From contig JAFTYU010000034.1 in assembly GCA_017461235.1 (NCBI GenBank), positions 1-64,000 on the forward strand: a DNA stretch of 64,000 nt, written 5' to 3'. This document shows positions 21,127 to 64,000 of the stretch, piece after piece. Within the stretch, counting starts at the first letter, position 1, and the number at the start of each line of letters is the position of its first letter. The notes under the pieces were generated by a model that saw only the letters and a list, made by a program, of their open reading frames with translations, was not told the origin of the DNA and did not search any database. Position numbers and translations under genes: made by a program. The stretch comes from Clostridia bacterium. Its GTDB lineage: Bacteria > Bacillota > Clostridia > Oscillospirales > Acutalibacteraceae.

Positions 21127-21143
21127 AAATAACACCTCTTTTT

Positions 21144-21178
21144 AAAAACCCTCAACATCGAAAACTCGGCGTTGAGGG
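21144..21178 (-). terminator. Terminator between sulfatase and maturase
   Basis: CCCTCAAC and GTTGAGGG (21149-21156, 21171-21178) pair around a 14-base loop; on the minus strand the hairpin is followed by TTTTTAAAAAG. It lies after the sulfatase stop and only a few bases ahead of the anSME ribosome site, so the maturase depends on read-through. Confidence 0.7.
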
Positions 21179-21190
21179 GATTTTTGATTA

Positions 21191-24134: not shown

Positions 24135-25613
24135 ATGACAGAAACAAATATTTACAAGGATATTCAAGCAAGGACGGGGGGCGATATTTATATAGGTGTT
24201 GTGGGGCCTGTGCGTACGGGCAAATCATCGTTTATAAAACGTTTTATGGATACGCTTGTTATACCCAATATCGATAGTGAATATAAACGCGGCAGGGCAC
24301 AGGATGAGTTACCGCAATCAGCTGCGGGCAGAACCATTATGACGACCGAGCCTAAATTTATTCCCGAAGAGGCCGTTAAAATTGATTTGCCGGATAACGC
24401 ATCCTTAAACGTCCGACTGATTGATTGTGTAGGCTATATTGTACCAAGCTCTTTAGGTTATGTTGAAGAAGAAAAGCCGCGAATGGTAAAAACTCCGTGG
24501 TACGAGCACGAGATACCATTTAATATGGCTGCGGAAATAGGCACACAGAAGGTCATTACAGAACACTCAACAATAGGTCTTCTTGTTACGACTGACGGTT
24601 CTATAAGTGATATTCCGCGAGAGGAGTATGAAGAAGCGGAAGAGCGTGTTGTTGATGAACTGAAAGCTATTAATAAGCCATTTGTTATGTTGTTGAATGC
24701 TACCGATCCCCATAGCGAAAATGTAGTGAAATTATCAGGAAAACTAAGCGAGAAATACTCTGTGCCTGTTATTCCCGTTAATTGTCTTGATATGGATGAA
24801 AATCTTATTAAAGAGGTTCTCTCTGCTATTCTTTACCGTTTTCCGGTTCGCGAAATCGGCATCAGTCTGCCTGAGTGGGTTATGAGCCTTGACAGGGAGC
24901 ATTGGTTGAGAGCATCCGTCTGTGCAAGTGTCAAAGAATCAGCTACCGGTATTTCCTGTATCGGGGATATCGGATGCATGTTAAGCGGTATCGGCGATAA
25001 TGATAACGTATTAAATGCAGAAATATCCAATCTCGACTTAGGCAAGGGTTGTGCAGAAATCAAAGCAACTCTCTCGGGAGATCTTATATATAAAATTATT
25101 GAAGAAAAAACAAGTCTTAATATAACAAATGAAGAAGAACTGATGGAAAATCTTCAGATGCTTGCCGATGTTAAAAAGAAATATGACCGCATCAAAAATG
25201 CACTTGATGAAGTTGAAGCAACAGGCTACGGTATTGTGATGCCCGATATTGATGAACTTACTCTTAAAGAGCCTGAAATTGTAAAACAAGGCGGCAGATA
25301 CGGTGTAAGGCTTTCTGCATCTGCACCGTCAATACATATGATGAAAACCTGTATTGAAACGGAAGTAGCACCTGTTGTAGGTACCGAAAGTCAGTCGGAA
25401 GAACTGCTGAAATACCTTCTCGATGGGTTTGAAGAAGACCCCCATAAAATATGGGAGTCTGATATCTTCGGTAAATCCTTGAATGAGCTTGTAAATGAAG
25501 GTCTCAGAAGTAAGCTGTGTCATATGCCCGTGGATGCTCGCGGCAAAATTCAGGAAACGCTTGAACGTATTATAAATGACGGTTGCAGCGGTCTGATTTG
25601 TATAATTCTTTAG
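24135..25613 (+). CDS. spoIVA: Stage IV sporulation protein A (spore coat morphogenetic ATPase)
   Basis: A 492-residue protein, exactly the Bacillus SpoIVA length. SpoIVA hydrolyses ATP to polymerise on the forespore surface, forming the basement layer on which the coat assembles. The Walker A motif is GPVRTGKSS with Lys30 at the same number as in B. subtilis; DCVGY follows as the Walker-B-like element, and LVTTDGSISDIPREEY is conserved. The C-terminus (NDGCSGLICIIL) is the forespore-targeting tail. I chose the ATG at 24135, behind GGAGGTAG. A sigma-E-like promoter lies upstream. Its end overlaps the convergent CDF gene by four bases. Confidence 0.96.
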   Translation: MTETNIYKDIQARTGGDIYIGVVGPVRTGKSSFIKRFMDTLVIPNIDSEYKRGRAQDELPQSAAGRTIMTTEPKFIPEEAVKIDLPDNASLNVRLIDCVGYIVPSSLGYVEEEKPRMVKTPWYEHEIPFNMAAEIGTQKVITEHSTIGLLVTTDGSISDIPREEYEEAEERVVDELKAINKPFVMLLNATDPHSENVVKLSGKLSEKYSVPVIPVNCLDMDENLIKEVLSAILYRFPVREIGISLPEWVMSLDREHWLRASVCASVKESATGISCIGDIGCMLSGIGDNDNVLNAEISNLDLGKGCAEIKATLSGDLIYKIIEEKTSLNITNEEELMENLQMLADVKKKYDRIKNALDEVEATGYGIVMPDIDELTLKEPEIVKQGGRYGVRLSASAPSIHMMKTCIETEVAPVVGTESQSEELLKYLLDGFEEDPHKIWESDIFGKSLNELVNEGLRSKLCHMPVDARGKIQETLERIINDGCSGLICIIL

Positions 25614-26797
25614 TCGTTCTCGCTTTTTAAAACACCGTAACTTCTGTCAACTACTATAACTGCGTAAAGGTTGCCGTTACCGGCTTCATTTACGCGGTTT
25701 TTTATTATTGTCTTAATTTCTTTATCCGTGTATTTATAACTCGGGGGTACAACAATATCAAAAAGAACGTTTTTAGCTTTATCGCCAACAACAACCCTGA
25801 AATCATGGAAGGTTATAACGGGGTCAATATCATAAAGTATCTTACGTACAACTTCCTTGAGCTCGTTTGTTTCTTCACAATCGAGAACCGTCGGGTCAAG
25901 ATGAACAACAAGGTGGATATTCATTTGTTTTGCAAAATCACGCTCGATTTTATCCATAATGTCATGACAAACAAGCACGTCTATTTTTGCATCCATTTCA
26001 ATATGTGCAGACGCAAAGTAACTGCCGGGACCGTAGCTGTGTACCAATAAATCGTGAACACCTAAAACGTTTTCATACGATAATATTTTCTGCTCAATTT
26101 TCTCATACATTTCCTTTGATGGTGCCTGTCCGAGCAGGGGACCGACAGTTTCTTTAACAAGGCTTATGCCTGAAATTAATATAAATACAGCAACGCCTAC
26201 ACCCATATATCCGTCAAGGTTAAAGCCTGTGAAATACGAGATTATAGCGGCAATGAGAACTGCGCCTGTTGAGATACAGTCGTTTCTGCTGTCTGCGGCA
26301 GTAGCGTCGAGAGCGGTTGATTTAATAAGCTTGCCTAAAGCTTTGTTGAATCTGCTTAACCACAGTTTAAAGAGAATTGAAACAGAAAGTATCAACGCAG
26401 TAACCCAGTTGAAGACGCTTTCTTCGGGAGTGATGATTTTACCTAATGATGTTTTAAAGATTTCAAAACCGATAAGCAGAATAAGAAAAGAAATTATAAG
26501 ACCTGTTATGTATTCAATTCGCGCGTGACCGTAAGGGTGGTCTTCATCCGCGGGCTTTTCGGACAATCTGAAGCCGATGAGTGTTATTATTGATGAACCT
26601 GCATCTGCAATATTGTTTGTAGCATCTGCGGTTATGGAAACGCTGTGTGTCAGGAAACCCAGAACAAATTTAAGTCCGCTTAAAAGCAAGTTGCAAATTA
26701 TACCCACTATACCTGCAATTTTGCCGTAACTTTCTCTGCCGCCGGATGTCTCGGGATTTTTGTTTTTCAAAAACAGTTTAATAATAAGCTTTGTCAT
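25610..26797 (-). CDS. Cation diffusion facilitator, probable Mn2+ exporter
   Basis: A 395-residue CDF transporter with six membrane helices (about 25-220) and a cytoplasmic ferredoxin-like dimerisation domain, longer than usual at the C-terminus. The helix-2 site reads TNNIAD (Asn-x3-Asp) and the helix-5 site DSRND (Asp-x3-Asp). Zinc CDFs such as YiiP have His in helix 5; the Asn/Asp/Asp/Asp set matches manganese exporters of the MntE type, so Mn2+ (or Fe2+) efflux is the likely role. The ATG follows AAAGGTC. It is divergent from the nucleotidyltransferase and has its own promoter. Confidence 0.88.
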   Translation of the reverse strand: MTKLIIKLFLKNKNPETSGGRESYGKIAGIVGIICNLLLSGLKFVLGFLTHSVSITADATNNIADAGSSIITLIGFRLSEKPADEDHPYGHARIEYITGLIISFLILLIGFEIFKTSLGKIITPEESVFNWVTALILSVSILFKLWLSRFNKALGKLIKSTALDATAADSRNDCISTGAVLIAAIISYFTGFNLDGYMGVGVAVFILISGISLVKETVGPLLGQAPSKEMYEKIEQKILSYENVLGVHDLLVHSYGPGSYFASAHIEMDAKIDVLVCHDIMDKIERDFAKQMNIHLVVHLDPTVLDCEETNELKEVVRKILYDIDPVITFHDFRVVVGDKAKNVLFDIVVPPSYKYTDKEIKTIIKNRVNEAGNGNLYAVIVVDRSYGVLKSEND

Positions 26798-50567: not shown

Positions 50568-50606
50568 CTGATTTAAATTAGTATTGTATTTACAGGAGTG
50601 ATAAAT

Positions 50607-52100
50607 ATGAAAAAAGCGACAAAATACGTTTTAGCAGGCGTAGGTGCTGCAGCAGCTGCAGGTGTGGGTGTGAGTATGGTTCGTGCCGCAACGACATACA
50701 AAGCAAAACCTGTAGCAAAAGGCGAAGTCTTACCTGCGGAGAATGTGGATTTGGAAAGATATATTAATAATCTTTCAAAGGCTATTCAGATTCCTACAAT
50801 TTCCAACAGAGATGAAAGTCTTGTTGATTGGTCAAAATTTGATGAGTTTCACGCTTTTCTCAAAGAGGCATATCCTCTTATTCACGAGAAACTTGAGTTG
50901 CAGATAATCTCAACCCGAAGCCTTATGTACCATTGGAAAAGTGCGCATCCGGAAAAGGAACCGATTGCTTTGCTTGCTCATCAGGATGTTGTTCCCGTTT
51001 CACCGGGAACAGAAGATGACTGGGAGCATGCACCCTTCGGCGGTGAAGTTGCAGACGGTTATATCTGGGGCAGAGGTGCTATTGATATTAAAAACCACCT
51101 TATAGGCGTTATGGAAGCCGTTGAGACCTTACTTCAGGAAGGTTATGTTCCTGAAAGAGACGTTTATCTTTGTTTCGGACATAATGAAGAAGTTATGGCT
51201 GAAGGAGATGAATGCGGCGCAACTTGTATGATGAAATGGTTCAAAGAACGCGGCATTAAACTCGATAGTGTAATAGATGAAGGCGGAGCAATTCTTTCGG
51301 TAAAGGTTGATAAAGTTATCGACGGACATCTTGCAGGTGTCGGTATTGCTGAAAAAGGTCACGTTGATTTTGAAATTTCAGTTAATGCAAAGGGCGGACA
51401 TTCATCACAACCTCCCAAACACAGCGCATTAGGTGAACTTTCAAAAATAGTTTGCAATCTTGAAAATCATCAGTTCAAGGCAGAGCTAACACCACAGCTT
51501 TACTCTCTTTTTAACGAAATTGGTAAAAATACAACATATCCCGTAAGATGTGTTATGAGTAATCTTCCTGTTCTTAAACCCCTTGTGACAAAGGTTTGCT
51601 CAGAAATTCCCGCTGTTGCATCTATGATGAGAACAACTACTGCAATTACTATGGCTAACGGTAGCCCTGCACCGAACGTTCTTCCGCAGAAGGCATCGGT
51701 TATTGCGAACTTCCGCATTATGCCCGGTCAGACTGTTCAGGATGTTGAAGCACATATCAGAAAATATGCCGGACCAAAAGCAGAGGTTAAACTTGTAGGG
51801 GGTAAAAATCCTTCAAAGATTTCACCTACAGATTCAAGAGCATTTAAAGTTATTTCTGATATATGTAAGTCAATGGATCCCAAGGCGATTGTTGCACCTT
51901 ACCTTGTCATGGGTGGTACTGATGCTCGTCAGTATGAGGATGTGTGTGATAATATTTACCGTTATTCACCCTTCCTTATGGATACACCTCTTCTTCTTAC
52001 TACTCACGGAACAAATGAGAGAATCCCCGTAAGTTCATTGGAGGATGGCGTGGCATTCTTTAAGAGATATATACGCGCTCTCACTAAAGATTTAGAATAA
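50607..52100 (+). CDS. M20-family metallopeptidase
   Basis: A 497-residue M20 (CPG2/PM20D1-like) peptidase. A hydrophobic, Ala/Gly-rich N-terminal segment (7-28) may anchor it to the membrane or export it. Di-zinc site motifs are LLAHQDVVP near 125 and GRGAIDIKNH near 157, with the catalytic Glu-Glu in GHNEEV near 193; a dimerisation/lid domain follows (KGHVDFEISVNAKGGHSSQP). Family members cleave dipeptides or N-acyl amino acids; the exact substrate is unknown. The ATG at 50607 follows ACAGGAGTG. It ends at a bidirectional terminator shared with the minus-strand cluster. Confidence 0.88.
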   Translation: MKKATKYVLAGVGAAAAAGVGVSMVRAATTYKAKPVAKGEVLPAENVDLERYINNLSKAIQIPTISNRDESLVDWSKFDEFHAFLKEAYPLIHEKLELQIISTRSLMYHWKSAHPEKEPIALLAHQDVVPVSPGTEDDWEHAPFGGEVADGYIWGRGAIDIKNHLIGVMEAVETLLQEGYVPERDVYLCFGHNEEVMAEGDECGATCMMKWFKERGIKLDSVIDEGGAILSVKVDKVIDGHLAGVGIAEKGHVDFEISVNAKGGHSSQPPKHSALGELSKIVCNLENHQFKAELTPQLYSLFNEIGKNTTYPVRCVMSNLPVLKPLVTKVCSEIPAVASMMRTTTAITMANGSPAPNVLPQKASVIANFRIMPGQTVQDVEAHIRKYAGPKAEVKLVGGKNPSKISPTDSRAFKVISDICKSMDPKAIVAPYLVMGGTDARQYEDVCDNIYRYSPFLMDTPLLLTTHGTNERIPVSSLEDGVAFFKRYIRALTKDLE

Positions 52101-52104
52101 TAAA

Positions 52105-52142
52105 TAAAAATGTCAGTAAACGAAGGTTTACTGACATTTTTT
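52105..52142. terminator. Bidirectional terminator at the end of the iol-accessory operon
   Basis: A perfect 16-17 bp stem (AAAAATGTCAGTAAAC with its complement) closed by GAAG, with T runs on both sides. It ends the M20 peptidase transcript and the long minus-strand operon that begins beyond 64 kb. Confidence 0.9.
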
Positions 52143-53523
52143 ATATCGATTCAATTGATTTTTTAAATTCTGTAAAGAATTCTTCAAGAAGATTTTTGTC
52201 TTTTTCATTCCCGCGCAAGCACATTGAGACTTTTAACACACCATTGATGCTCAAGGCGGTCATAACTGCGCAGGGCTTGTTTTTTGCGGCACCTGCAACG
52301 AAGGCGGAAAATGGTGGATTGCCGGCCATTGAAAAGCTAACCGTATCGATTGCGCCAACGTTACTCACCGAAAGGGTAGGGTTATTATAAAATAACTTAA
52401 CGACTGTTTCCGCTTGCAAATACACCATAGTTTTATACGCTATATTCAAAAGCGGTAAACCGTGAAGACCTATGTAAGGGTCTTTCTTTAATTCTTTTGT
52501 TTTAGCAGAAACGTTTTTTATTGTTTCGCGTATGTTTTCGCCTTTTTTCTTAATGTTGCAGTGTATAAACGAAACGTGATTTGTGTAGCCGATAGAAGAA
52601 GGGTCTTTTATATGTCGCCTTAAATCGGTTGCACAGGATACGTTAATGCCTTCGTCTGCGTTCATTCCCGTCACTTTACCAAAAGCATCTATGTAAGCAG
52701 CTACAATTACGTCATTGACGGTAGCACCGACGTTTTTTGCATAGGATGTGGCTTTTGAAAAATTGTATTCATCAATTTCACGTGCAACGATTACGACATT
52801 GTCAATTTTTTCGTTGCTTTCAAAAGGCAGTGTGTGATTGTCACGGGGAGAGATGTTTGCAAATTGCTTTTTAGCGCCTTTTGCAAAAGTCTTATCCATA
52901 TCTTTGTAGATATCCGTGTATTTCCTTGAGCCTGTGGAAAAGTTGACGGGGGATATGCCTTTGAGAACGTAATCGGAATAATTTTTGCAAAAATCACTCC
53001 AAAAGGATTTATATCCGCCACCGTCAAAACACATATGATTCCATATAAAGCAAACGTAAGATTTACCTTTACAATAGAATAAACCGATATTCATTTGCAC
53101 ATTGCACGATAAGGGAATTGATTTTGAAAAAAAATCTTCACGAGCCAAATCAATATCGTCAACTGTTTTTGCAACAACCATATCATTGATGTTATAATCA
53201 GACACCTTCCAATAAGGCGATAAAGGACTGTTTATAACCTGTGAATGCATAAAGGGAGCACATTCAAGCCAGCAAATTGCAACGTTTTTGAAGGCTTCTT
53301 CATCAATAATAAAGTCGTAATCCACTTCAAAGCGCGCCATTCTGTCCATATAGTTACGGCACATCAGGTTGACTTTATCGTACATTTCGCACTTGATTTT
53401 TTTGTTTAAAAGATGTGGGTTTTGTGATTTAAGTTTTATTAAATCCTTTATAACTTTATCGTCCGTAAGCCCTTTTCTTTTTAAGGAAAAGGTTTCATTT
53501 TCTGTATTAATAGCAATTGACAT
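52141..53523 (-). CDS. Condensation-type acyltransferase (HxxxDG), stand-alone
   Basis: A 460-residue protein of the chloramphenicol-acetyltransferase / NRPS-condensation superfamily. The catalytic motif is H163-M-C-F-D167-G168, followed by GGGYKSF; a DLRRH segment near residue 296 and a SNVGAID-type block near 390 match wax-ester/alcohol-acyltransferase and PapA-like members. No carrier, adenylation or thioesterase domain is fused. The enzyme would join an acyl donor to an amine or alcohol. It is the last gene of the operon, 10 bases after the GH3 gene, whose acyl-adenylate or amide could supply its substrate. Product unknown. Confidence 0.8.
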   Translation of the reverse strand: MSIAINTENETFSLKRKGLTDDKVIKDLIKLKSQNPHLLNKKIKCEMYDKVNLMCRNYMDRMARFEVDYDFIIDEEAFKNVAICWLECAPFMHSQVINSPLSPYWKVSDYNINDMVVAKTVDDIDLAREDFFSKSIPLSCNVQMNIGLFYCKGKSYVCFIWNHMCFDGGGYKSFWSDFCKNYSDYVLKGISPVNFSTGSRKYTDIYKDMDKTFAKGAKKQFANISPRDNHTLPFESNEKIDNVVIVAREIDEYNFSKATSYAKNVGATVNDVIVAAYIDAFGKVTGMNADEGINVSCATDLRRHIKDPSSIGYTNHVSFIHCNIKKKGENIRETIKNVSAKTKELKKDPYIGLHGLPLLNIAYKTMVYLQAETVVKLFYNNPTLSVSNVGAIDTVSFSMAGNPPFSAFVAGAAKNKPCAVMTALSINGVLKVSMCLRGNEKDKNLLEEFFTEFKKSIESI

Positions 53524-53533
53524 AAATTTTACC

Positions 53534-55222
53534 TTAAATTACATGTGAGAAGAAGAAATCTCTTTTCTCATCGGTATCTATTACTTTGATAGGTTTAACT
53601 TGATTAAGGTTTGCCCCTCTTGCACGTAAAACTTCGCGGTAATCGTCATAGGTGCCGTGTCGAAGGAATTTAACCTCACAATGTCCGAGCGCACCGCTTT
53701 TTATAAGGGGTTCAACGCTTACGTTACCGTTGCAAAGCATTTCTTCAAAAGCATCATTATACATATCCTTTTTCTCATCGCTGACAGGCTCAGCGGTTTC
53801 AACGAATAACACATAGTGACCCGGAGACGTGCTTCTGTCGGGATATATACTGTAACCGATATACAAATCATTCATTTTTTCAGAAAGGTTAGCAACAATT
53901 TCGTCAAAAGCAAGGGAGCTTACCTTTTCGCCACTGATATTTGCAATCTGGTTAAGTCTGTAACAGAATGTGATTTTCGGACTCTGATTATAATAACCCG
54001 TTACTTTAATAACATCTTCTATACGGTAGCGATAAAAACCACTCATATTTGTTAATATTATTTCGTATTCCTTGCCGACTTCAAGGTCTTTTATAGTTAA
54101 AAGATTATCGTAACTGTCGCAGTCAATTGGTCTGAATTCATAAAAACCGTTTTGCGGAAGAAGAACGTATTCATAAGAATTAAGTTCAATGGGTACAGCC
54201 ATAAATGCTTCTGTTGCAGTATAACCAAGGTAGTGCATGGGTATATCTTCACCAATATAACGCCTTAATTTCTTTGCATAAAAGGATAAAGCACCTGTAC
54301 CCATACCGTACATCCACTCAACTTTAGGCCATATACGTGGGATAATAGGCGAACAATCAAACCCTTTGCGGAATTCTTCGCGGAGTTCTGCCGCTCTTTT
54401 AGGGTTGGGTTTGAGTTTTTTGTTATATTTTTTTCGGAGCTCTTCAGGCATTTTGATGCTGTCATTAATAATACCTTTTTCAATGTCGTCACAGAGCATT
54501 TCCCAGTTTTCTTCCATATAGAAAAACATTGATTCGAGCGTTGTGATGAACACTGTGCCCAGATAACTTGTTTTTTTGTTAGGTAAAGCAAAACGTAGCT
54601 TCAGATAGTGCATATCCATATCTGAACCCTGTTTTGGAAAAAGCACTTCTTTAGGTGATGTAGCAAAAAAAGGTACAAGCGGACGCAGGTTAAGAAGGGG
54701 AATTGAGGATAAACAGCTTATTGTACCGCCCTTAACCTTTCTTCGTCCTGTTTCTGCAGTAAGAAGACCTTTCTGCGGCGGAATACGTCTGCCTTGTTTT
54801 TTAAACCATTTTACAGCACAGCCTACGGGCGCACTGAAGCTGAAACATTGGCAAACCCATTCTGCCCAATAAGACAATGGCACAAGCTTTTGTTTTCCTG
54901 TACTTCCTGAAGATTCGGTGAAACGTCTGACAAACATATTGGTAATAAGGCCTTTTTCACCGTTAGCCATTCTCCACACATATTCATCATAATCTGCGTA
55001 TGTAGAAAGCGGAACTATCCGCTGATAATCTTCAATGGATTTTACATCTTTAAAGTTATTTAATTTACCGTAAACCGTTGATTTGTTTTTACGAATAAGA
55101 CGCTTGATGCAGGTTTCTTGCATTTTGTTAGCACGGCGTGAGTAAATATTTAATTTTATATGCTCGCAGGTGCCTAAGAAACCACCGAATTCTGCAAGAA
55201 TGTGACCTTTTATGTCAATCAT
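53534..55222 (-). CDS. GH3-family acyl-adenylating / amido synthetase
   Basis: A 562-residue member of the GH3 (auxin-responsive) branch of the ANL superfamily. Plant relatives activate carboxylic acids such as indole-acetate or jasmonate with ATP and couple them to amino acids without a carrier protein. The three nucleotide motifs are visible: FTESSGSTGKQK near residue 103, GYTATEA near 340, and FYRYRIEDVIKV near 400. It is part of the four-gene accessory set, 19 bases after the reductase, with GGGAGA before its ATG. Bacterial GH3 proteins are poorly studied; the acid and acceptor cannot be inferred from sequence. Confidence 0.85.
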   Translation of the reverse strand: MIDIKGHILAEFGGFLGTCEHIKLNIYSRRANKMQETCIKRLIRKNKSTVYGKLNNFKDVKSIEDYQRIVPLSTYADYDEYVWRMANGEKGLITNMFVRRFTESSGSTGKQKLVPLSYWAEWVCQCFSFSAPVGCAVKWFKKQGRRIPPQKGLLTAETGRRKVKGGTISCLSSIPLLNLRPLVPFFATSPKEVLFPKQGSDMDMHYLKLRFALPNKKTSYLGTVFITTLESMFFYMEENWEMLCDDIEKGIINDSIKMPEELRKKYNKKLKPNPKRAAELREEFRKGFDCSPIIPRIWPKVEWMYGMGTGALSFYAKKLRRYIGEDIPMHYLGYTATEAFMAVPIELNSYEYVLLPQNGFYEFRPIDCDSYDNLLTIKDLEVGKEYEIILTNMSGFYRYRIEDVIKVTGYYNQSPKITFCYRLNQIANISGEKVSSLAFDEIVANLSEKMNDLYIGYSIYPDRSTSPGHYVLFVETAEPVSDEKKDMYNDAFEEMLCNGNVSVEPLIKSGALGHCEVKFLRHGTYDDYREVLRARGANLNQVKPIKVIDTDEKRDFFFSHVI

Positions 55223-55241
55223 AGTATATCTCCCTGAAAAG

Positions 55242-56444
55242 TTAATTTATTACTAAAGTCATATCACTCATAGGGAATGAGCAACATGGGTGAATAATAC
55301 CGTGGCTGGAATCCGCCAAACGTCGCATATCAATACCCGATGGGATAAAGACGTTACCTTTAAGCAATTTTGCACGGCAAAAACCACATTCACCTGAACG
55401 GCAAAGTGAGGGAGTCTCAATGCCTTCGCGTTCAAGTGCAACAAGCAAGGATTCCGTGGAGCTGCAAGGCACGGTCTTTGAAAATTTGCCGTTTTTAATG
55501 ACCTTACAAAGGAAGGTTTTTCCTATTGCTTCAGGGGGGAAGTCGCTTAAATTTTCGGGATTATCAATCTGACCGTTCAAGCCGAAGCGAATAAACTTAT
55601 TTTCTAATTTCAATTCTGCAATTTGCGGAATGATTCTGTTATATAAAGTATTTGAACCGCAGACAAAGAGACTGTATTTTGAAATAGGTGCATATTTTTC
55701 AATAAGACTCTTTGTAACAAAACCCCGCTCGCATTTAAAGACGTGCTCGTCACTGAAAACGTAAATTACGCGGAAGTTTGCAGTAGTTTCTGCCAGCTCA
55801 TCAAGTCTTTGCGACATAATTGCTTCATTCTGTTTTCGTGCAGAATAAATCAAGGTTAAGTCTGCGTTCAAGGTTTTATCGGCAATTGATTCTGCCATTG
55901 ATAAAAATGCAGATATACCTTGATAATCGCAAACTGCTACAATGCTTTTTGAATCGCGTAAAGGTTGATAATGAAAATTACCGAAAGGTGCAGATGCAGT
56001 GATTTCAGTACCTTTACGCCAGTTATTAACAATAAATTGTGATGCAAACCCATCAGGCTTTTTGCTGACAATTATCATATATTCATCATCAACGGAGCGT
56101 AATGGGGATGAGCATAAGGTATAAGGTCTTGTAACAATTGCATTTCCGACCTGCAAGGTAATACTTATACATTGCCCCGGTCTGAAATAGGCAAGCTTAG
56201 CAGTACCACGCGCTGTATTCGGTTCAAAAATATAAGCTCTTGTGTTGCGGTTAATTTCGGCAACTTGCTTTATTTTTAAATATTGAACAGAAGGATGCAG
56301 AAAATTTGCGGTAGAGTTAACGGCAAAGTTACCGTTGACAGGCGTTTCGGGTGCTTCTTCAATAACACCCTTGCGCAATTCGGGTATATTGGTGAAATTT
56401 CGAATATCTTTAAGAGTGGAACGAACAACAACCTTATGCTTCAT
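55242..56444 (-). CDS. FAD/NAD(P) oxidoreductase with plant-type 2Fe-2S domain
   Basis: A 400-residue electron-transfer flavoprotein. An N-terminal extension (about 60) precedes a ferredoxin-reductase FAD domain (RPYTLCSSP near residue 100), an NAD(P) domain (SLFVCGSNTLYNRI near 265), and a C-terminal [2Fe-2S] domain with C-x4-C-x2-C (LCRSGECGFC) and a fourth Cys in HPCCSFP. It resembles phenol-hydroxylase-type or NQR-type reductases and probably feeds electrons to the CrtI-like protein encoded just upstream. The ATG at 56444 lies inside the preceding gene, behind AAAGGAG, an 11-base overlap. Confidence 0.85.
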   Translation of the reverse strand: MKHKVVVRSTLKDIRNFTNIPELRKGVIEEAPETPVNGNFAVNSTANFLHPSVQYLKIKQVAEINRNTRAYIFEPNTARGTAKLAYFRPGQCISITLQVGNAIVTRPYTLCSSPLRSVDDEYMIIVSKKPDGFASQFIVNNWRKGTEITASAPFGNFHYQPLRDSKSIVAVCDYQGISAFLSMAESIADKTLNADLTLIYSARKQNEAIMSQRLDELAETTANFRVIYVFSDEHVFKCERGFVTKSLIEKYAPISKYSLFVCGSNTLYNRIIPQIAELKLENKFIRFGLNGQIDNPENLSDFPPEAIGKTFLCKVIKNGKFSKTVPCSSTESLLVALEREGIETPSLCRSGECGFCRAKLLKGNVFIPSGIDMRRLADSSHGIIHPCCSFPMSDMTLVIN

Positions 56445-58005
56445 TTTGCGCGCTCCTTTCATTTTCAATGTCTCCTAAAGTTGCATAAGCGGCATTTCTG
56501 CCGGAAGCGACAGCGGAATTGATACCTGACAGCTGTGTACCCCAACCACCGCAAAAACGCAGACCTTTTGTATCGCAATCAAGAGCTTCTGTCATAAATC
56601 GCGGTACAACGCTATCCCAATCATCTCCGAGATAGCCGTAAATACAGCCTTGCGGGGTGTTGGTATATCTTGCAAATGTCACGGGTGTCGCAACTTCGAT
56701 TTCTTCAATATACTTGTGAATTGTTATACCTGTTGCTTCCTCGAATTTTGCAATAAGGCGTGCAGCAAGCATATCTTTTTCATCAAAGTAACCTTCGGGT
56801 GTTACGTCAGCCCAACAATTATCTGTATAGAGTGTAGTCATACACATTATGGTCGTGCCTTCAGGAGAGCAGTCAGGATTTGCTATATTTAAACAAACAG
56901 TTGCCTGAGAGCTGTTTGTATCTATCGTTTTCATAAGTGCAAATTGTGATGCAGAGTCTGCGGTATCGGTAATAAAGAATGAATAATCTTTAATTCCGAG
57001 TTCTTCGGGTGAACGGTTTAAACCAAGATAAACACAGGCACCTCTTGCACCGAATGTACGTGCGTTGGTTCTTTTAACAGCCGAAAGAGGAACATCGGAT
57101 TTTTTCATCATCTTTGAATAAACGGTTGTAGGTGAACAGTTACAAATTATGTGATTACAATCGATTTTTTCTCCGTTTTTCATAACAACACCGCAGGCTT
57201 CGCCGTCTTTAAAAAGAATTCGTGAAACGTGGGAATTGTATCTTATTTCGCCGTTGTAATCTTCCAAAGCACCTGCAAGAGCCATACTCATTTCGTGGCT
57301 TCTGTAAGTGGGAATAACCGAACCGAGTCGGATATAAGAATTAACCATACAAATGTAATGAGTAAAACTTAATCTGTCACAATCAATGCCAAGATACCAC
57401 CAGTAAGCATTAAAAATTTCGCGTGCTTTCTGTGGAACTTTAAGGGCATCAAGAACTTCATTAACAGAGTAGGGTGCAGTTTTAACAAAGTTCCCGTATT
57501 TTTTCATTATGTTATGAATTTCTTTTAGAGAAATTTTTATTTCATTTGAAGCAAAGTATTCAATTGCGGCTTCAATTTCGTCACCAAGCATAAAAAGTCT
57601 CGTCATAGATTCTTTACTGCCGGGAACGTATTCTTCCATTGTGTTTATGAAATTATCTTGTCCGAAGGGCATAGTTACATCAATGGGGGAGCCATCATAA
57701 GATTTACTTAACAAGCGGAAAGCATCGGGTACGGGTGACCATTTGATTTTGTCACTAATGCCCATAAAATCAAAAATCTGACGCAACTCACCAAGCCCTG
57801 CTTCGGTTGAGAATCTGCAGAGTTCGTGTAAGGATGTCTCAAATTCAAATCTTCCCCTGACAAAACTTGTTGAAAAACCGCCGGGGGTATTATGGCGTTC
57901 AAGTAAAAGTACTTTTTTTCCTTCTTTAGCAGCACAAACTGCGGCGGATAAACCGCCGCAACCTGCACCAATAACTATAATATCATAGTTGTTTTTGTGA
58001 GTCAT
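56434..58005 (-). CDS. CrtI/phytoene-desaturase-like FAD oxidoreductase
   Basis: A 523-residue flavoprotein of the phytoene desaturase / retinol saturase / amine oxidase superfamily. The Rossmann FAD motif VIGAGCGGLSAA at residues 11-22 with the following LLERHNTPGG, and the C-terminal FCGGWGTQLSGINSAVASGRNAA, define it. Members reduce, desaturate or isomerise hydrophobic C=C substrates. No other carotenoid genes (crtB, crtE) occur here, so a non-carotenoid substrate is more likely. It starts 15 bases after iolG, with AGAGGT overlapping the iolG stop region, and opens the accessory set. Confidence 0.85.
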   Translation of the reverse strand: MTHKNNYDIIVIGAGCGGLSAAVCAAKEGKKVLLLERHNTPGGFSTSFVRGRFEFETSLHELCRFSTEAGLGELRQIFDFMGISDKIKWSPVPDAFRLLSKSYDGSPIDVTMPFGQDNFINTMEEYVPGSKESMTRLFMLGDEIEAAIEYFASNEIKISLKEIHNIMKKYGNFVKTAPYSVNEVLDALKVPQKAREIFNAYWWYLGIDCDRLSFTHYICMVNSYIRLGSVIPTYRSHEMSMALAGALEDYNGEIRYNSHVSRILFKDGEACGVVMKNGEKIDCNHIICNCSPTTVYSKMMKKSDVPLSAVKRTNARTFGARGACVYLGLNRSPEELGIKDYSFFITDTADSASQFALMKTIDTNSSQATVCLNIANPDCSPEGTTIMCMTTLYTDNCWADVTPEGYFDEKDMLAARLIAKFEEATGITIHKYIEEIEVATPVTFARYTNTPQGCIYGYLGDDWDSVVPRFMTEALDCDTKGLRFCGGWGTQLSGINSAVASGRNAAYATLGDIENERSAQNEA

Positions 58006-58020
58006 TTATATTAGACCTCT

Positions 58021-59028
58021 TTAGTTGATTTCAGAAAGCTTAACAGGTCTGCCTTCGTTAGCAGATTTTTCAGCAGCAAGTGCAATTTTAACCGACTGAA
58101 GACCGGCGTGGATACCAACAGGTGTTTCTTTATTATTTATACAGCAGTCAACAAACTGTCTTACTTCTTCAGAGAATGAACCCATATATCTCTCAAGGAA
58201 GAAATAGAGAGGCTTTTCACCTGTAACACCGTTAGCGTCCGCAATAACTGCGGTTGAAAGTGTGTCGTTAGCAGTAGCAACCATACCTTTTGAACCGAAA
58301 AGTTCAGCTCTCTGATCGTAGCCGTACATAGCCTGACGTGAATTGTCGATAACTGCAAGAGCACCGTTTTCCATTTTCATTGAAATGATAGCTGTGTCAA
58401 AATCACCGTATTCACGGATACCGGGATTGATAAGAGCATCAGCATATACATAAAGTTCTTCAACATCGCTGTTGGTAAGGAAGCAAGCCATATCAAAATC
58501 ATGAATCGTCATATCAAGGAAGATGCTTGCAGCACAGTAGCCAACCGGTGGTGCCTGAGGGTCTCTGGAAGTGATTTTAAGGATTTGTGCATCACCAATT
58601 TTGCCTTCATCATAAGCTTTTCTTACAGCAGCAAAGTTGTGGTCGAATCTACGGTTGAAGCCAACCTGGAATTTTACTTCAGGATGAGCCTTGAGAGCTT
58701 CTGCAATTTCGAGAATTTTATCAACTGTATTTGCAAGAGGCTTTTCACAGAAAACGTGTTTGCCTGCTTCAATAGCCTCGATGGAAATAGGGGCGTGAGT
58801 GTCTGTTGAAGAGCAGACAAGAACTGCATCAATTGTTTCGTCCTCAATGATTTTCTTGTAATCAGTATAGATTTTTTCAACGCCGAAACCTTCGCAGAAA
58901 GCTTTTGTTTCATCATTCATAAAAGGATCAGCAATAGCAGTAACAACTGCATTTTTTACGTGATATGAAATTGATTCCAGGTGTACTTTACCTATACGGC
59001 CTGCACCGATAATACCGATATTAAGCAT
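58021..59028 (-). CDS. iolG: myo-Inositol 2-dehydrogenase
   Basis: A 335-residue Gfo/Idh/MocA enzyme oxidising myo-inositol to 2-keto-myo-inositol with NAD. IGAGRIGKVH at residues 6-15 binds NAD, CEKPLA near 94 carries the catalytic Lys, and DMTIHDFDM near 172 holds the Asp/His pair of IolG. It follows iolA on the minus strand with a 30-base gap and AAAGGAT ribosome site. It is the last recognisable iol gene; the CrtI-like gene begins 15 bases beyond its stop with no terminator. A scyllo-inositol dehydrogenase is the chief alternative. Confidence 0.9.
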   Translation of the reverse strand: MLNIGIIGAGRIGKVHLESISYHVKNAVVTAIADPFMNDETKAFCEGFGVEKIYTDYKKIIEDETIDAVLVCSSTDTHAPISIEAIEAGKHVFCEKPLANTVDKILEIAEALKAHPEVKFQVGFNRRFDHNFAAVRKAYDEGKIGDAQILKITSRDPQAPPVGYCAASIFLDMTIHDFDMACFLTNSDVEELYVYADALINPGIREYGDFDTAIISMKMENGALAVIDNSRQAMYGYDQRAELFGSKGMVATANDTLSTAVIADANGVTGEKPLYFFLERYMGSFSEEVRQFVDCCINNKETPVGIHAGLQSVKIALAAEKSANEGRPVKLSEIN

Positions 59029-59058
59029 ATTTATTATATCCTTTCACAATGTTTTTAT

Positions 59059-60570
59059 TTAGATAGTTCCGTCCCATGTGGAAACTTCTGTTTTCTTTAT
59101 TTCGTCTTCGTCGAACCAACGTGTTGTAACACATTTGCTCTCTGTAAAGAAACGGTAAGAATCTTTACCGAGACAGTGAAGATCACCAAAGAAGGAATCC
59201 TTATGACCTGAGAAGGGGAAGAAACCGATCGGAACGGGGATACCAACGTTAACACCAACCATACCACCGTGTGTATGACGAGTGAATTCTCTCGCATAGT
59301 GACCGTTCTGGGTAAAGATAACCGAACCATTTGCATAGGGGTTAGCGTTCATAACTTTAAGACCTTCGTGGAAATCTTTAACACGTTTGATGCAAAGAAC
59401 AGGTCCGAATACTTCGTCTCTGCCGATTGTCATATCTTCTGTAACGTTATCAAAGATTGTGGGGCCGACAAAGTAACCGTCTTTGAGCTCATCGGGAAGC
59501 TCAGGGTTTCTGCCGTCAAGAACAAGTGTTGCACCTTCTTTAACGCCCTTTTCAATATCAGCCACAACTTCGTCGTAATGTTTTTTGTATGTAAGCGGTC
59601 CGAGCTTGGATGTCTTATCAATTGATTTGCCGACTTTTATACCCATAGCTTGCTTTTTGAGTTCTGCAACGAATTTGTCTGCAATTGATTCCTGTACTAC
59701 GCAGCAGGAAAGAGCCATACAACGCTGACCTGCACAACCATATGCGGAGTTGATAATACCTGCAACAGTGCGCTCGATAGGTGTATCTTCAAGAACAAGA
59801 GCATGGTTTTTAGCCTGACAAAGAGCCTGAACACGTTTGCCTGCCTTAGCAGCTCTTTCGTAAATAAGTTTTCCGACAGGTGTTGAACCGACAAAAGTGA
59901 TACCTTTGATGTCGGGGTGGTCAAGAAGTGTGTTGATTTCATTTCTTGAACATGTAACAACATTAACAACACCATCAGGCATACCGGCTTCTTTATAAAG
60001 CTGAGCAATTCTCAATGCCGTTTTAGGAGTGAGCGACGCCGCTTTAAGCACGATAGTATTACCGCAAGCAACGCATACGGGAACCATCCAGCCGAAAGGA
60101 ATCATAGCAGGGAAGTTAACCGGAACAATACCTGCAAAAACACCCATTGATTCACGGTATAAAACGGTATCAAAGCCTTTTGAAGCATCCATAAGGCTTT
60201 CACCCATCATAAGAGAAGTAACCTGAATGGCAAGTTCAGTACCTTCCTTTGCTTTAAGAACGTCGCCCTCTGCCTCTGACCATACCTTACCGTTTTCTTC
60301 AGCAACAAGAGTTGTAAGCTCTTCCATATGTTCAATAAGAAGGTTGCGTACATTGTAAAGAATCTGTGATCTCTTGATTGCAGGAGTTGCGCTCCAAGCA
60401 GGGTAAGCGGCTTTTGCAGCTTCTACAGCCTGAAGAACTTCGTCGTTTGTGCAACAGGGTGCATAACCTGTTACTTCACCTGTGCTGGGATTGTGAAGGT
60501 CATACCAAACGTCTGTTTTTGATTCAACGTATTCGCCGTTGCAAAAGTATTTAATTTTTTCTGCTGACAT
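59059..60570 (-). CDS. iolA: Methylmalonate-semialdehyde dehydrogenase (CoA-acylating)
   Basis: A 503-residue aldehyde dehydrogenase of the MmsA/IolA type, which converts malonate semialdehyde to acetyl-CoA in inositol breakdown. The catalytic Cys lies in YGCAGQRCMAL near residue 280, the NAD-binding FVGSTPVGKLIY near 225, and EEVFGPVLCIK-type sequence (DEVFGPVLC) near 390. The N-terminal Arg/Pro-rich CoA site region is normal. It lies between iolE and iolG in the same operon. Full length and start (behind GGAAAGG) are as in relatives. Confidence 0.94.
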   Translation of the reverse strand: MSAEKIKYFCNGEYVESKTDVWYDLHNPSTGEVTGYAPCCTNDEVLQAVEAAKAAYPAWSATPAIKRSQILYNVRNLLIEHMEELTTLVAEENGKVWSEAEGDVLKAKEGTELAIQVTSLMMGESLMDASKGFDTVLYRESMGVFAGIVPVNFPAMIPFGWMVPVCVACGNTIVLKAASLTPKTALRIAQLYKEAGMPDGVVNVVTCSRNEINTLLDHPDIKGITFVGSTPVGKLIYERAAKAGKRVQALCQAKNHALVLEDTPIERTVAGIINSAYGCAGQRCMALSCCVVQESIADKFVAELKKQAMGIKVGKSIDKTSKLGPLTYKKHYDEVVADIEKGVKEGATLVLDGRNPELPDELKDGYFVGPTIFDNVTEDMTIGRDEVFGPVLCIKRVKDFHEGLKVMNANPYANGSVIFTQNGHYAREFTRHTHGGMVGVNVGIPVPIGFFPFSGHKDSFFGDLHCLGKDSYRFFTESKCVTTRWFDEDEIKKTEVSTWDGTI

Positions 60571-60591
60571 TTTTTTTCCTTTCCCGGTTTA

Positions 60592-61485
60592 TTATAAACC
60601 TGCTTTTTCTGCTATATATTTTCTTGCTTTAACTGCATACTCGAAGGGGTTTGCTATTGCAGGGTCTTGCTCTGCTTCAACAAGCACGTAACCTTCGTAA
60701 TCATTTTCTGCAAGAACATCAAAAATAGGTGCGAAATCAATTACGCCGTCACCGGGTACTGTAAATGTACCTTTTCTGACACCCTGAAGAAAGCTTTCTT
60801 TGTTAGCTTTAACATCTGCAATAACGTCGGGGCGAATGTCTTTAAGATGAACGTGCTTAATACGTTTGATGTACTTTTTAAGTACGCTCATATAATCTTC
60901 GCCGCAATATGCAAGGTGACCTGAGTCAAAAAGAAGATTGAAGAGCTCCGGGTCGGTGTTTTCCATAAGTCTGTCAATTTCAGCTTCTGTCTGAACAACG
61001 GTACCCATATGATGATGGAATGTAAGGGTGATGCCCATGTCTTTTGCAACCTTGCCGAGCTTGTTGAGACCTGTGCAGAGCATATCCCATTCTTCATCAT
61101 TCATAACGTATTTGTCATCAAAAATTGAAAGGTCTGTACCTTGAATTGAATGACCCTGTTCCGAAACACCTACAACCTTTGCACCCATTTCCTTAAGGAA
61201 TGTTATGTGCTCGATAAAATCTTTTTCGGTTTCTTCATAAGGCTTTGTTGTAAGGAAGGTTGAGAACCAAGCGTTGCAAATCTGCATACCGCGCAGCTCA
61301 AGAGCCTTTTTGAGTACAGCTGTATCTTTAGGATACTTGTTGCCGATTTCACAACCTGTGAATCCTGCAAGAGCCATTTCAGATATACATTGTTCAAACG
61401 TGTTTTCTGCTCCAAGGTCGGGCATATCGTCATTGGTCCAGGCGATAGGAGCGATGCCGAGTTTTACTTTGTTTTTATCAAGCAT
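60592..61485 (-). CDS. iolE: myo-Inosose-2 dehydratase
   Basis: A 297-residue TIM-barrel sugar epimerase-like enzyme that dehydrates 2-keto-myo-inositol, the second step of the pathway. Metal-binding residues are visible: TFHHHMGT near 152, [10 protein letters not shown] near 190 and [10 protein letters not shown] near 220, with EAEQD near 270 as the last ligand. The WTNDD start is characteristic of IolE. Its ATG shares a base with the iolD stop (TAATG), so it is translationally coupled to iolD. Confidence 0.94.
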
Positions 61486-63398
61486 TAGAATTTCCTCGCT
61501 TTTCTGAGATTTTCTTCTTTATTTTCAAAAGCGGCGTTGACCGCTTCTTTTGATGAAGTGGATGCGATACCGACGTGCCACCATGCGCCGTAACCGTCAG
61601 TCATAGATTTTGGCAATACCTTGATGTCAATAAGTGTTGAAACTTCCTGTTTTTTACTGTCTTCAAGAGCCGCTTTAAGTTCCTCAAGCGTTTTTGCCGT
61701 GTAAGTCTTAACACCGTAGCCGGAAGCACTTTTTGCAAAATCAATGGGGAAAAGCTCGCCTAAAAGGTTACCGTTTTCGTCACGTTTACGGAACTCTGTA
61801 GCAAGATTGCCGATACCGTTTGACATCTGAAGGTTGTTAATACAACCGAAACCTGAATTGTCAAACAAAAGAACGTTGATTTTTTTGTTTTCCTGAATAG
61901 ATGTAACAAGTTCACTGTGGAGCATAAGGTAACTTCCGTCACCACAGAACGCATAAACTTCTTTTTCGGGTTCTGCGAATTTTGAACCGAGAGCGCCTGC
62001 AATTTCATAACCCATACAGGAATATCCGTACTCCATATTGTAGGAATATAAGCTGTCTGTGGTCCACATTCTTTGCATACAACCGGGGAGAGAGCCTGCC
62101 GCCGCAACTGCAATAGCATCGTCATCAATAGTTTCTCTGATAAGTGCGAGAGCAGCAGTCTGTGTTATTGTTCCGCCGATTTTTTCTACAAATTCAGGAA
62201 TTGTATCCTCGTATCTTGCTTTAATGATGGGCTCAAAATCTTCAGAATATTTATAATCTGAAAGCTTCAGCATTTCTTCATTCCAAGCGTTTTTAGCATC
62301 TGCTATTTCGGTTGTGTATCCGGTTTTATATTCACCGATAGCCGCATCAAGAGCGTTAATTGCAAGCTTGGCATCGCAAACAGCTTTGGTTGCACCGAGT
62401 TTATATGCATCAAATCTGTCGGTATTGATTGTCACGAATTTCGCATCATCTCTGAACAAGGATTTTGAAGCGGTTGTGAAGTCGGAGAAACGTGTACCTA
62501 CGCCGATAATTACGTCTGCGTCTTTAGCAATCAGGTTAGCAGAAAGATTACCTGTAACACCTACACCGCCAACATTAAGGTGGTGTGATGAAAGAACAGC
62601 AGACTTGCCGTTTTGTGTTTCAGCAAACGGAATGTTATGCTTTTCGCAGAAGCTCTGAACCGTATCACCGCATTCTGAATATCTAACACCGCCGCCGGCG
62701 ATAACAAGGGGTTTCTCAGCAGATTTTAAAATCTCTGCAATATCGTCTATTTCATCCTGTGCAGGAGCAATTCTGGTGATTTTGTGCACTCTCTTTTTGA
62801 AGAATTCCTCGGGATAGTCGTAACTTTCACCTTCAACATCCTGACAAAGGGCAATACAAACGGCACCTGTGTTAGCAGTATCGGTAAGGACGCGCATTGC
62901 ATTAATCATTGCAGACATAAGTTGCTCGGGACGAACAATTCTGTCCCAATATCTGCAAACAGGCTTGTATGCATCATTAGTTGTAACCGCGAGTGAATAG
63001 GGTTGTTCAAACTGTTGAAGCACCGGGTCGGGCTGACGGCAGGCAAATGTATCTGCAGGGAAAAGCAAAAGGGGAATATTATTAACTGTTGCAGTAGCCG
63101 CCGCAGTAATCATATTAGCGGCACCGGGGCCGATAGAGGAAGAACAAGCGATAATTTTGCGTCTGTTATTCTGTTTGGCAAAACTTGCAGCAACGTGTGC
63201 CATACCTTGCTCGTTTTTACCCTGATAGACTCTTAAAGAGCCGGGGTTTTCATCAAGCGCCTGACCAAGCCCGCAAACAATACCGTGACCAAAAACAGTA
63301 AAAATACCGTCAACAAATTTGGTTTCCTTGCCGTCAAAGGACACATATTGATTATCAAGGAATTTAACAAGTGCTTGACCCATTGTCATAATAGGCAT
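61485..63398 (-). CDS. iolD: 3D-(3,5/4)-trihydroxycyclohexane-1,2-dione acylhydrolase
   Basis: A 637-residue ThDP-dependent enzyme that opens the inositol ring, giving 5-deoxy-glucuronate. The catalytic-Glu region [11 protein letters not shown] is near residue 60, and the ThDP/Mg motif [11 protein letters not shown]...NNSGFG, here [10 protein letters not shown], lies near 480-510. Length and the acetolactate-synthase-like three-domain order match IolD. The ATG follows TTAGGAGTG. It lies 23 bases after iolB and overlaps iolE by one base. Confidence 0.95.
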
Positions 63399-63421: not shown

Positions 63422-64000
63422 TTATTTTGTTAACCACTGATGTTCTTCTGAAACAAAACGTGTGGTTTTAAGCCAAGGGTCGTCTTCGAGATGACGAACC
63501 ATCCAGATGTAACACATTTCATATCCGGGGGCAACAACTTGCTCATGATCTTTGCCATCGGGTATATAAACTGCACTTCCCTGAACGCTTTTGAAAACAT
63601 CGTCACCCACAAAGGCGGCACCGAACCCCTGAGGTTTATCAAACTGATAATAATAAACTTCGGGTTGGGGATGGTGATGCGGGGGATAACTTGACCATCT
63701 GCCGGGTTGATTATAAACTTCACCAAGAACCATATTTGAATAGGGTGCGTTATCGTGGTCAAAAACTGTAGAAACTATTCTGTAGCCTGCGCCGTCCCAT
63801 TGGTCTTTGCCAAAGTGTTGATAAAGTATCATATCGGGCGTGTAAAAAACAGGTGTGAAAATAATATCGTTATCTGTCTGTTGGATAAGAATTTCAGTAT
63901 CGGCATTTGCTTTCACTGAGACTTCAGTCTGTTTAGGAACGTGTAAGCAATAAGATGACTTAACAAAGGGATTTTCTCTGAACATTTTCTGTGTTTCGCC
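63422..64000 (-). CDS. iolB: 5-deoxy-glucuronate isomerase, 5' end beyond window
   Basis: The C-terminal part (about 192 residues) of a bicupin isomerase that converts 5-deoxy-glucuronate to 5-dehydro-2-deoxy-gluconate. The PPHHHPQPEVYYY segment is the cupin metal site and GKDHEQVVAPGY the following strand. The frame stays open to the right edge, where GETQKMFRENP continues upstream; IolB is normally about 270 residues, so some 75-80 lie outside. Other iol genes (iolC, iolJ) and the promoter probably also lie beyond 64 kb. Confidence 0.93.
   Translation of the reverse strand, partial: GETQKMFRENPFVKSSYCLHVPKQTEVSVKANADTEILIQQTDNDIIFTPVFYTPDMILYQHFGKDQWDGAGYRIVSTVFDHDNAPYSNMVLGEVYNQPGRWSSYPPHHHPQPEVYYYQFDKPQGFGAAFVGDDVFKSVQGSAVYIPDGKDHEQVVAPGYEMCYIWMVRHLEDDPWLKTTRFVSEEHQWLTK

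Follow-up and report, generated by a model that had tools for sequence, protein, structure and literature searches.

Two putative two-enzyme modules, a CrtI-like/2Fe-2S reductase pair and a GH3/HxxxDG acyltransferase pair, at the tail of a clostridial inositol operon

The DNA considered here is a stretch of 64,000 nucleotides from a Clostridia bacterium of the Acutalibacteraceae (assembly GCA_017461235.1, contig JAFTYU010000034.1, positions 1 to 64,000), hereafter the window. Towards its end lies a myo-inositol catabolic operon, whose iolG, iolE, iolD and iolA products all score above their NCBIfam cut-offs, and this operon runs into four further genes (Table 1). They encode, in order, a CrtI-like flavoprotein, a 2Fe-2S reductase, a GH3 acyl-amido synthetase and an acyltransferase with an HxxxDG motif, and they are paired two and two: the first two are referred to as module A and the last two as module B.

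Table 1. Features of the operon tail and its surroundings in the window
Feature	Position	Strand	Basis
CrtI-like FAD flavoprotein, 523 amino acids (aa), first gene of module A	56434..58005	-	Pfam/NCBIfam and PDB comparison
NAD(P)H/FAD/2Fe-2S reductase, PaaE/benzoate-dioxygenase-reductase type, second gene of module A	55242..56444	-	Pfam domains
GH3 acyl-amido synthetase, 562 aa, first gene of module B	53534..55222	-	Pfam GH3 domains, JAR1 alignment
HxxxDG acyltransferase, 460 aa, NHMCFDGG, second gene of module B	52141..53523	-	Condensation/PapA/WS-DGAT superfamily
Intrinsic-terminator-like hairpin, 16 pairs, right after HxxxDG stop	52106..52141	-	Terminator scan
iolG, inositol 2-dehydrogenase, precedes module A	58021..59028	-	TIGR04380, 428 bits vs cut-off 355
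iolA, methylmalonate-semialdehyde dehydrogenase type	59059..60570	-	TIGR01722 above cut-off
iolE	60592..61485	-	TIGR04379 above cut-off
iolD	61485..63398	-	TIGR04377 above cut-off
iolB, truncated by window edge, below its NCBIfam cut-off	63422..64000	-	NCBIfam
M20-like peptidase (named by eye), convergent gene	50598..52100	+	Sequence

A preliminary description of this DNA had reported four minus-strand genes behind iolG with no hairpin in between, and both statements agree with the present analysis. The distances from iolG through the CrtI-like, reductase and GH3 genes to the HxxxDG gene are +15, -11, +19 and +10 by open reading frame (ORF) coordinates, and the minus strand between iolG and the HxxxDG gene holds two weak terminator-like matches of 5 pairs each, both within the CrtI-like gene, whereas the strong hairpin comes after the last stop codon. 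Across 52000-60700 of this strand three such matches were found besides that hairpin (5-6 pairs), all within coding sequence. The reductase start at 56444 is an ATG preceded by ribosome-site-like sequence, and an in-frame TTG lies at 56468. Gene spacing favours a single predicted transcript for the iol genes and the four tail genes; the promoter scan is uninformative because it returned 20 matches as against 21.0 in shuffled sequence.

Past the window edge the operon continues upstream of iolB (L104, G000:C17:63500-70000; G, L and C numbers denote genomes, loci and contigs of the comparison set, and G000 is the window's own genome). It starts with homologues of iolJ and iolC, followed by a DUF218 gene and then iolB, and a YhhN-family gene is divergent to iolJ at a distance of 382 bases (match ends). 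The iolC and iolJ genes were assigned in one relative as PfkB and class-II aldolase, and their homologues are present on the window's own contig. The YhhN family is presumably lysoplasmalogenase-like, a hint at lipids.

Both pairs were followed through 22 genomes of the genus, which are drafts of 76-98% completeness. There are 33 places with a CrtI homologue and 32 with a reductase homologue; 30 of the latter adjoin a CrtI place, and the two exceptions are partial (G139:C136, at a contig edge, and G137:C11). This bears out the earlier suggestion that the 2Fe-2S reductase is the partner of the CrtI-like protein. A CrtI orthologue (at least 49% identity) is present in 18/22 genomes and GH3 likewise in 18/22. 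Wherever the contig continues, the HxxxDG gene stands directly 3' of GH3 (17/17; G133 is cut), the cases being G128, G134, G135, G137, G130 (matched by contig position), G057, ten more and the window. A further set of 24 loci, overlapping these genomes, has the GH3-HxxxDG pair in 21, and the remaining three GH3s are 43-44% identical. The surroundings of module B vary between an M20-like peptidase gene with polC and no iol genes, PEP (phosphoenolpyruvate)-carboxykinase-like and DapA-like genes, and ClpC-like and histidine genes, all named by eye except polC, which was recognised by homology to the window gene. The window's own convergent M20-like peptidase gene and polC flank the pair in several relatives that lack iol genes there.

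The four genes are contiguous in just 3/22 genomes (G000, G128 and G134), where reductase and GH3 lie 18-22 bases apart (match ends, stop codon counted). Module A occurs without GH3 in G120, G122 and G139, and GH3 occurs without a CrtI orthologue in G121, which has no CrtI at the thresholds used, and in G131 and G137, which have a second-type CrtI only. A single conserved four-gene system was set aside on the rarity of contiguity, and the preliminary description's view of the genes as one conserved system is not supported. In that view there would be one route co-regulated with inositol use, perhaps starting from an inositol-derived block, in which GH3 and HxxxDG form an amide or ester and CrtI-reductase modifies the chain. 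Short gaps in three species and the lack of a convincing internal terminator in the window are what such a route would predict, but each module occurs without the other, and in the other relatives read module B stands at a non-iol locus; with the five genomes described below, in which neither iolG nor iolD was found, the route appears improbable.

Co-occurrence across the family counts in its favour and fits a looser link. Among 120 genomes drawn evenly (thresholds E<=1e-30 for GH3 and E<=1e-60 for CrtI), GH3 is found in 13 and CrtI in 17, and nine have both where 1.8 would be expected (hypergeometric p 1.3e-6); leaving out the genus itself gives 7 against 1.4 (p 3e-5). These statistics ignore kinship and the CrtI set includes paralogues, so the association is a lead only. 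The preliminary description had named a lack of joint conservation in relatives as grounds against a system, and contiguity of the four in one clade of the genus goes part of the way towards that outcome. At CrtI loci of the family sample, own genus included, a reductase adjoins in 15/20; of the other five, L038 is cut at a contig end and four lack a reductase by ORF calling. By eye, the neighbours of CrtI-reductase across the family showed no recurrent partner besides an isomerase, considered below, and one small protein family at two of the loci (L038, L039), and they were set aside as a general guide to function.

The tie between module A and inositol genes is regular within the genus. iolG is found in 15/22 genomes, and CrtI follows it directly in all 13 with a readable iolG 3' end (G122 was counted on contig C154, the site of a second iolG part, and G121 and G137 are cut there). 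The earlier claim of a four-gene set attached to the inositol operon therefore stands for CrtI-reductase and fails for GH3-HxxxDG, which adjoins in 3/22 only. Such constancy behind iolA and iolG would also suit a redox sink, in which NADH from these two dehydrogenases is spent with low specificity on an external unsaturated compound; module A is, however, kept in five genomes in which iol genes were not found, and a second pair (44/40% identical) stands away from iol in the window's own genome, which renders this proposal distinctly improbable.

Neither iolG (E<=1e-80) nor iolD (E<=1e-60) was found in six genus genomes: G057, G124, G125, G129, G133 and G132. The last (81% complete, about 460 contigs) has a second-type CrtI only. 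The other five retain a divergent YhhN gene, DUF218, CrtI and reductase, that is, the frame of the iol genomes minus both iol blocks, and all carry GH3 elsewhere, so that both modules persist; G057 alone is >90% complete, and the frame was read through in all five. Four iol genomes have YhhN next to the operon (G000, G128, G135, G136; 37-41% identical to the G057 protein), and in the others the fetched stretch or the contig ended before its position. A maximum-likelihood tree was built from 38 CrtI proteins. It groups the 18 orthologues of the genus (96/98), places the five iol-less rows as a clade (100/100) nested among iol-linked ones and unites the three GH3-adjoining rows in another (100/100), so the four genes were probably joined once. 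In the simplest history, module A would have been added behind the iol genes at the base of the genus, the iol genes would have been lost once, and module B would have been attached once, in an ancestor of the three sampled species; this history depends on a tree of one gene, in which the rooting is a matter of drawing and the G139 row is of unusual composition. An inositol-derived building block, as the preliminary description had envisaged, is unlikely because module A is retained in a clade where neither iolG nor iolD was found and because module B so rarely adjoins module A. A product derived from inositol was set aside on the first of these grounds.

The CrtI-like protein matches the Pfam models Amino_oxidase and NAD_binding_8 and other FAD-binding models. 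In NCBIfam it scores best against carotenoid isomerase (97.6 bits, cut-off 586.9), against CrtD and against CrtI (phytoene desaturase TIGR02734, 77.9 bits, cut-off 238.1); all are far under their cut-offs, and the protein is therefore a relative rather than a member of the carotenoid families. Its closest solved relative is a gamma-carotene desaturase (PDB 4rep, 56.8 bits). A regular expression for the FAD motif matched 23/44 CrtI relatives and was not used. The reductase combines FAD_binding_6, NAD_binding_1 and Fer2 domains with the four cluster cysteines of ferredoxin-NAD(P) reductases of the PaaE/BenC type, and the four-cysteine 2Fe-2S pattern is kept in all 40 distinct relatives that reach the C-terminus.

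With carotenoid enzymes as its nearest relatives, does module A belong to carotenoid or isoprenoid metabolism, as a desaturase or carotenoid-isomerase relative with its electron partner? The ranking of the profile and PDB matches points that way, and diet-derived carotenoids or polyprenyl chains would be possible substrates, but the scores themselves are low, and the phytoene/squalene synthase family (SQS_PSY) was found in 0/22 genus genomes while 7/14 controls were positive. A carotenoid desaturase of the organism's own pathway is unlikely for this last reason, and carotenoid biosynthesis was set aside; carotenoid or isoprenoid chemistry in the wider sense has a low probability.

Further genes of the CrtI-reductase type lie elsewhere in the genome and in relatives. 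The second pair of the window's own genome (G000:C19:19201-21906, L035:7199-9943) is remote from iol and GH3, with a CrtI 44% and a reductase about 40% identical to those of the window, and in one relative a second-type CrtI gene is broken by an in-frame stop (G131:C14:14070-15602, L084).

A clue to the substrate of module A comes from three related loci. In G043, G098 and G208 a CrtI-reductase pair is preceded, at 69-112 bases by match ends, by a homologue of PDB 2b9w, which the PDB listing names a putative aminooxidase and which we take to be PAI, the linoleate/polyunsaturated fatty acid isomerase of Propionibacterium (Cutibacterium) acnes. In G043 and G098, where the CrtI is 34-35% identical to that of the window, this homologue is a flavoprotein of 462 aa, and the one of G098 matches 2b9w with 463 bits (E 7e-138). 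A search of 245 genomes of the order with the 2b9w-type flavoprotein gave two matches, G098 and G208 (of another family), and CrtI-reductase adjoins in 2/2; G043 was located via CrtI and is hence not an independent draw for this association. PAI and its 2006 structure paper are named in passages of PMC13365329 that do not carry the PDB code. Because a related CrtI-reductase branch sits behind the isomerase homologue in 3/3 loci where that homologue was found, module A plausibly acts on an unsaturated fatty acid. At the isomerase loci, the order of a conjugating isomerase and then a flavoenzyme pair fed by NADH suggests that the conjugated acid is reduced; the same reaction for the window's clade would be an extrapolation over 34-36% identity.

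All three isomerase loci also have a divergent AMP-ligase gene. The row of isomerase homologue, CrtI-like protein and reductase with its divergent AMP-ligase (L045, L046, L101) thus occurs in two families as a possible fatty-acid conjugation/reduction cluster.

In module B, the synthetase carries all three Pfam domains of its family (GH3 238.2, GH3_M 85.8 and GH3_C 57.3 bits; cut-offs 23.6) and an SSGTS-like nucleotide motif I with the conserved serine, SSGSTGKQK. A narrow pattern for motif I is found in 38/45 distinct GH3 relatives, with motif II in 31/45 and motif III in 26/45, and some of those without a match are possibly partial or divergent. In PMC12493201, OlsH, a GH3 enzyme of planctomycetes, is shown to couple ornithine to free fatty acids in a reaction that uses ATP and Mg but neither acyl carrier protein (ACP) nor coenzyme A; its motif-I Ser115 is essential, and a second acyl group is added by OlsI. 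By eye, the window protein has a serine at the place of Ser115. Given the amide-synthetase family and the functional precedent of OlsH, the earlier reading of this protein as a carrier-free amide synthetase appears sound by analogy. The authors of PMC12493201 anticipate that GH3s elsewhere among bacteria use amino acids different from ornithine, and they point to the N-acyl amino acids of gut Clostridia. Filing the window protein as OlsH was dropped, as it misses the curated cut-off.

At 1e-3 neither Pfam nor NCBIfam gives a match to the HxxxDG protein, and it stays below the gathering cut-off of Pfam Condensation (PF00668; 14.3 vs 30.6 bits). In the alignment of its family, N162, H163, D167, G168 and G169 are invariant in 22/22 rows, and at E<=1 Condensation is matched by 20/22 members (best 2.2e-11), PapA_C by 9/22 and WS_DGAT_C by 8/22. 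The family profile matched nonribosomal peptide synthetase (NRPS) entries in the PDB, including a heterocyclisation domain (best E 1.4e-5). The invariant motif, the family matches and the NRPS structures together identify the protein as a divergent, acyltransferase-like member of the condensation/PapA/WS superfamily.

Other GH3 genes of the family have comparable company. In L016-L018 an AMP-ligase and a Condensation-type protein immediately precede GH3-HxxxDG (131 bits in L016, the one scanned), and a lipase-like protein (L017), an AMP-ligase (L015) and a Condensation protein (L057) occur around further GH3s, together with weak Pfam matches to alpha/beta-hydrolase (L023) and ceramidase (L015). 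With these neighbours, the OlsH precedent and the condensation-superfamily partner, the most reasonable guess for module B is acyl-lipid chemistry. Instead of making a membrane lipid, GH3-HxxxDG could modify a small acid for signalling or detoxification, much as plant GH3s conjugate hormones, with HxxxDG acylating a separate substrate. JAR1 is the better match, at 178 bits across residues 27-545, almost the full length of the window GH3, as against 64.7 bits to the OlsH model; the lasting partner from the PapA/WS/condensation superfamily and the lipase-like, ligase, Condensation, hydrolase and ceramidase neighbours count against this alternative, which is unlikely.

Two-component-system-like genes follow in L016 and L017 (by eye), and in L023, L025 and L051 GH3 relatives (43-48%) stand beside large alpha/beta-hydrolase-looking proteins with signal-like N-termini (L023 alone was scanned).

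Gene order, families and pairing are observed, and from them we infer the reactions, the direction of electron flow and the substrates of both modules as follows. In module A, the reductase would pass electrons from NAD(P)H through its FAD and 2Fe-2S cluster to the FAD of the CrtI-like enzyme, which would reduce a C=C bond in a hydrophobic chain or isomerise it via reduced flavin; the chain is most plausibly that of an unsaturated fatty acid. In module B, GH3 would adenylate a free fatty acid and couple it without a carrier to an amine that is probably an amino acid; a second acyl group would then be moved onto a hydroxyl by the HxxxDG enzyme, following the ornithine-lipid logic of OlsH/OlsI with an unrelated O-acyltransferase. 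That the operon tail consists of two independent two-enzyme modules for hydrophobic acyl compounds, acting in this way, is given a probability of roughly 0.5.

Several observations weigh against this proposal. The CrtI proteins and reductases of the isomerase loci are 34-36% and 32-33% identical to those of the window, and their CrtI proteins form a clade separate from the window's; within that clade, the pair of G047 (L047) lacks an adjoining isomerase and has two genes upstream, one of them LysR-like. For these three reasons the substrate of the isomerase loci need not apply to the window, in whose genome no 2b9w-type isomerase was found at E<=1e-60. The sole NCBIfam match of the window GH3 is OlsH (NF052613), at 64.7 bits against a cut-off of 620, and plant GH3s act on acids other than fatty acids. 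Among the 13 genomes of the family sample that have GH3, ten showed no HxxxDG relative beside it, although in two of these (G014, G060) the best GH3 is near a contig end and a third (G056) has a Condensation protein there. HxxxDG matches occur in 12/120 family genomes, three adjoining GH3, seven behind a gene of ~270 aa and two being distant matches. The seven (L107-L113) form a branch without GH3: their HxxxDG relatives of ~430 aa each stand behind the overlapping ~270-aa gene (287 aa in L107), the overlap being 16 bases in six loci and 50 in L107 (called start). As such a branch exists, the HxxxDG enzyme need not act on the GH3 product.

The ~270-aa neighbour protein had no Pfam match in the two tested. 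Its N-terminal part resembles, by eye, the N-terminal extension of the window HxxxDG protein.

If the two-module proposal is correct, module B would be a second GH3 lineage, in gut clostridia and with an unrelated O-acyltransferase partner, so that carrier-free acyl-amide lipids would have arisen more than once, and it would hint at clostridial lipids that have gone unrecorded. CrtI-reductase would be a concrete two-gene candidate for the reduction of unsaturated fatty acids in herbivore-gut clostridia. A bolder version, speculative and rather unlikely, would make module A the first recognised case of an anaerobic fatty acid reductase that is widespread, driven by NADH and active on unsaturated or conjugated chains, serving gut-clostridial biohydrogenation with a carotenoid-desaturase fold. 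It would stand behind iol because the breakdown of plant phosphatidylinositol yields both inositol and polyunsaturated fatty acid, and module B would cap the fatty acid as a carrier-free acyl-amide or ester lipid, convergent with OlsH/OlsI. A conjugated linoleic acid (CLA) reductase gene from Butyrivibrio has already been published, to judge from the title of Fukuda 2007 as cited in PMC4478896, and with that gene in view CrtI-reductase would be a further fatty acid reductase and not the first. Literature searches found no paper tying a phytoene desaturase to a myo-inositol operon in Clostridia, none on a CLA reductase gene together with rumen biohydrogenation and, among the matches listed, nothing on a CrtI-reductase pair; one worked bacterial GH3 example, OlsH, was among them.

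The preliminary description is thus half right: the partners and family inferences hold, and its set of four is better seen as two modules, probably joined once. Its statement that no transporter lies in the window is corrected by a cation-efflux transporter at 25610-26797. At 20032-23242 a 683-aa Sulfatase-domain protein adjoins a radical SAM/SPASM protein. Its statement that the window has no acyl carrier gene is provisional, as the scan for one covered 42 chosen ORFs from the first 44 kb, with 25 of 53 families among the matches listed.

How do the modules compare with known systems? The CrtI-like protein shares its FAD-binding family and its top profile matches with CrtI, carotenoid isomerase and CrtD, but scores below all their cut-offs in a genus where a carotenoid synthase was not found. 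The loci with linoleate isomerase homologues (G043, G098, G208) have relatives of CrtI and reductase in the same order as module A, whereas the window's genome has no isomerase at the threshold given above and its CrtI belongs to another clade. Plant GH3s such as JAR1 and GH3.12 share with the window protein the three Pfam GH3 domains, motif I and, for JAR1, near full-length similarity; unlike them, the window GH3 is in an operon with an acyltransferase. The gut clostridial fatty-acid amide clusters with OaaA, OaaACP and OaaC resemble module B in their clostridial acyl amides (predicted here) and their free-standing condensation-superfamily protein, and the AMP-ligase and Condensation arrangement of L016-L018 recalls these clusters, described in PMC13142362. 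In them an ACP and an adenylation domain are needed and the condensation protein forms the amide, whereas in the window GH3 would do so without a carrier. OlsH/OlsI is like module B in pairing a GH3 enzyme with a second acyltransferase gene and in ATP-driven, carrier-free amide formation, established for OlsH and predicted here. It differs in two respects: a methyltransferase gene, olsG, lies between its two genes while none separates GH3 from HxxxDG in the window, and OlsI is an alpha/beta hydrolase, whereas the window operon has in its place, as partner of GH3, a protein of the condensation/PapA superfamily.

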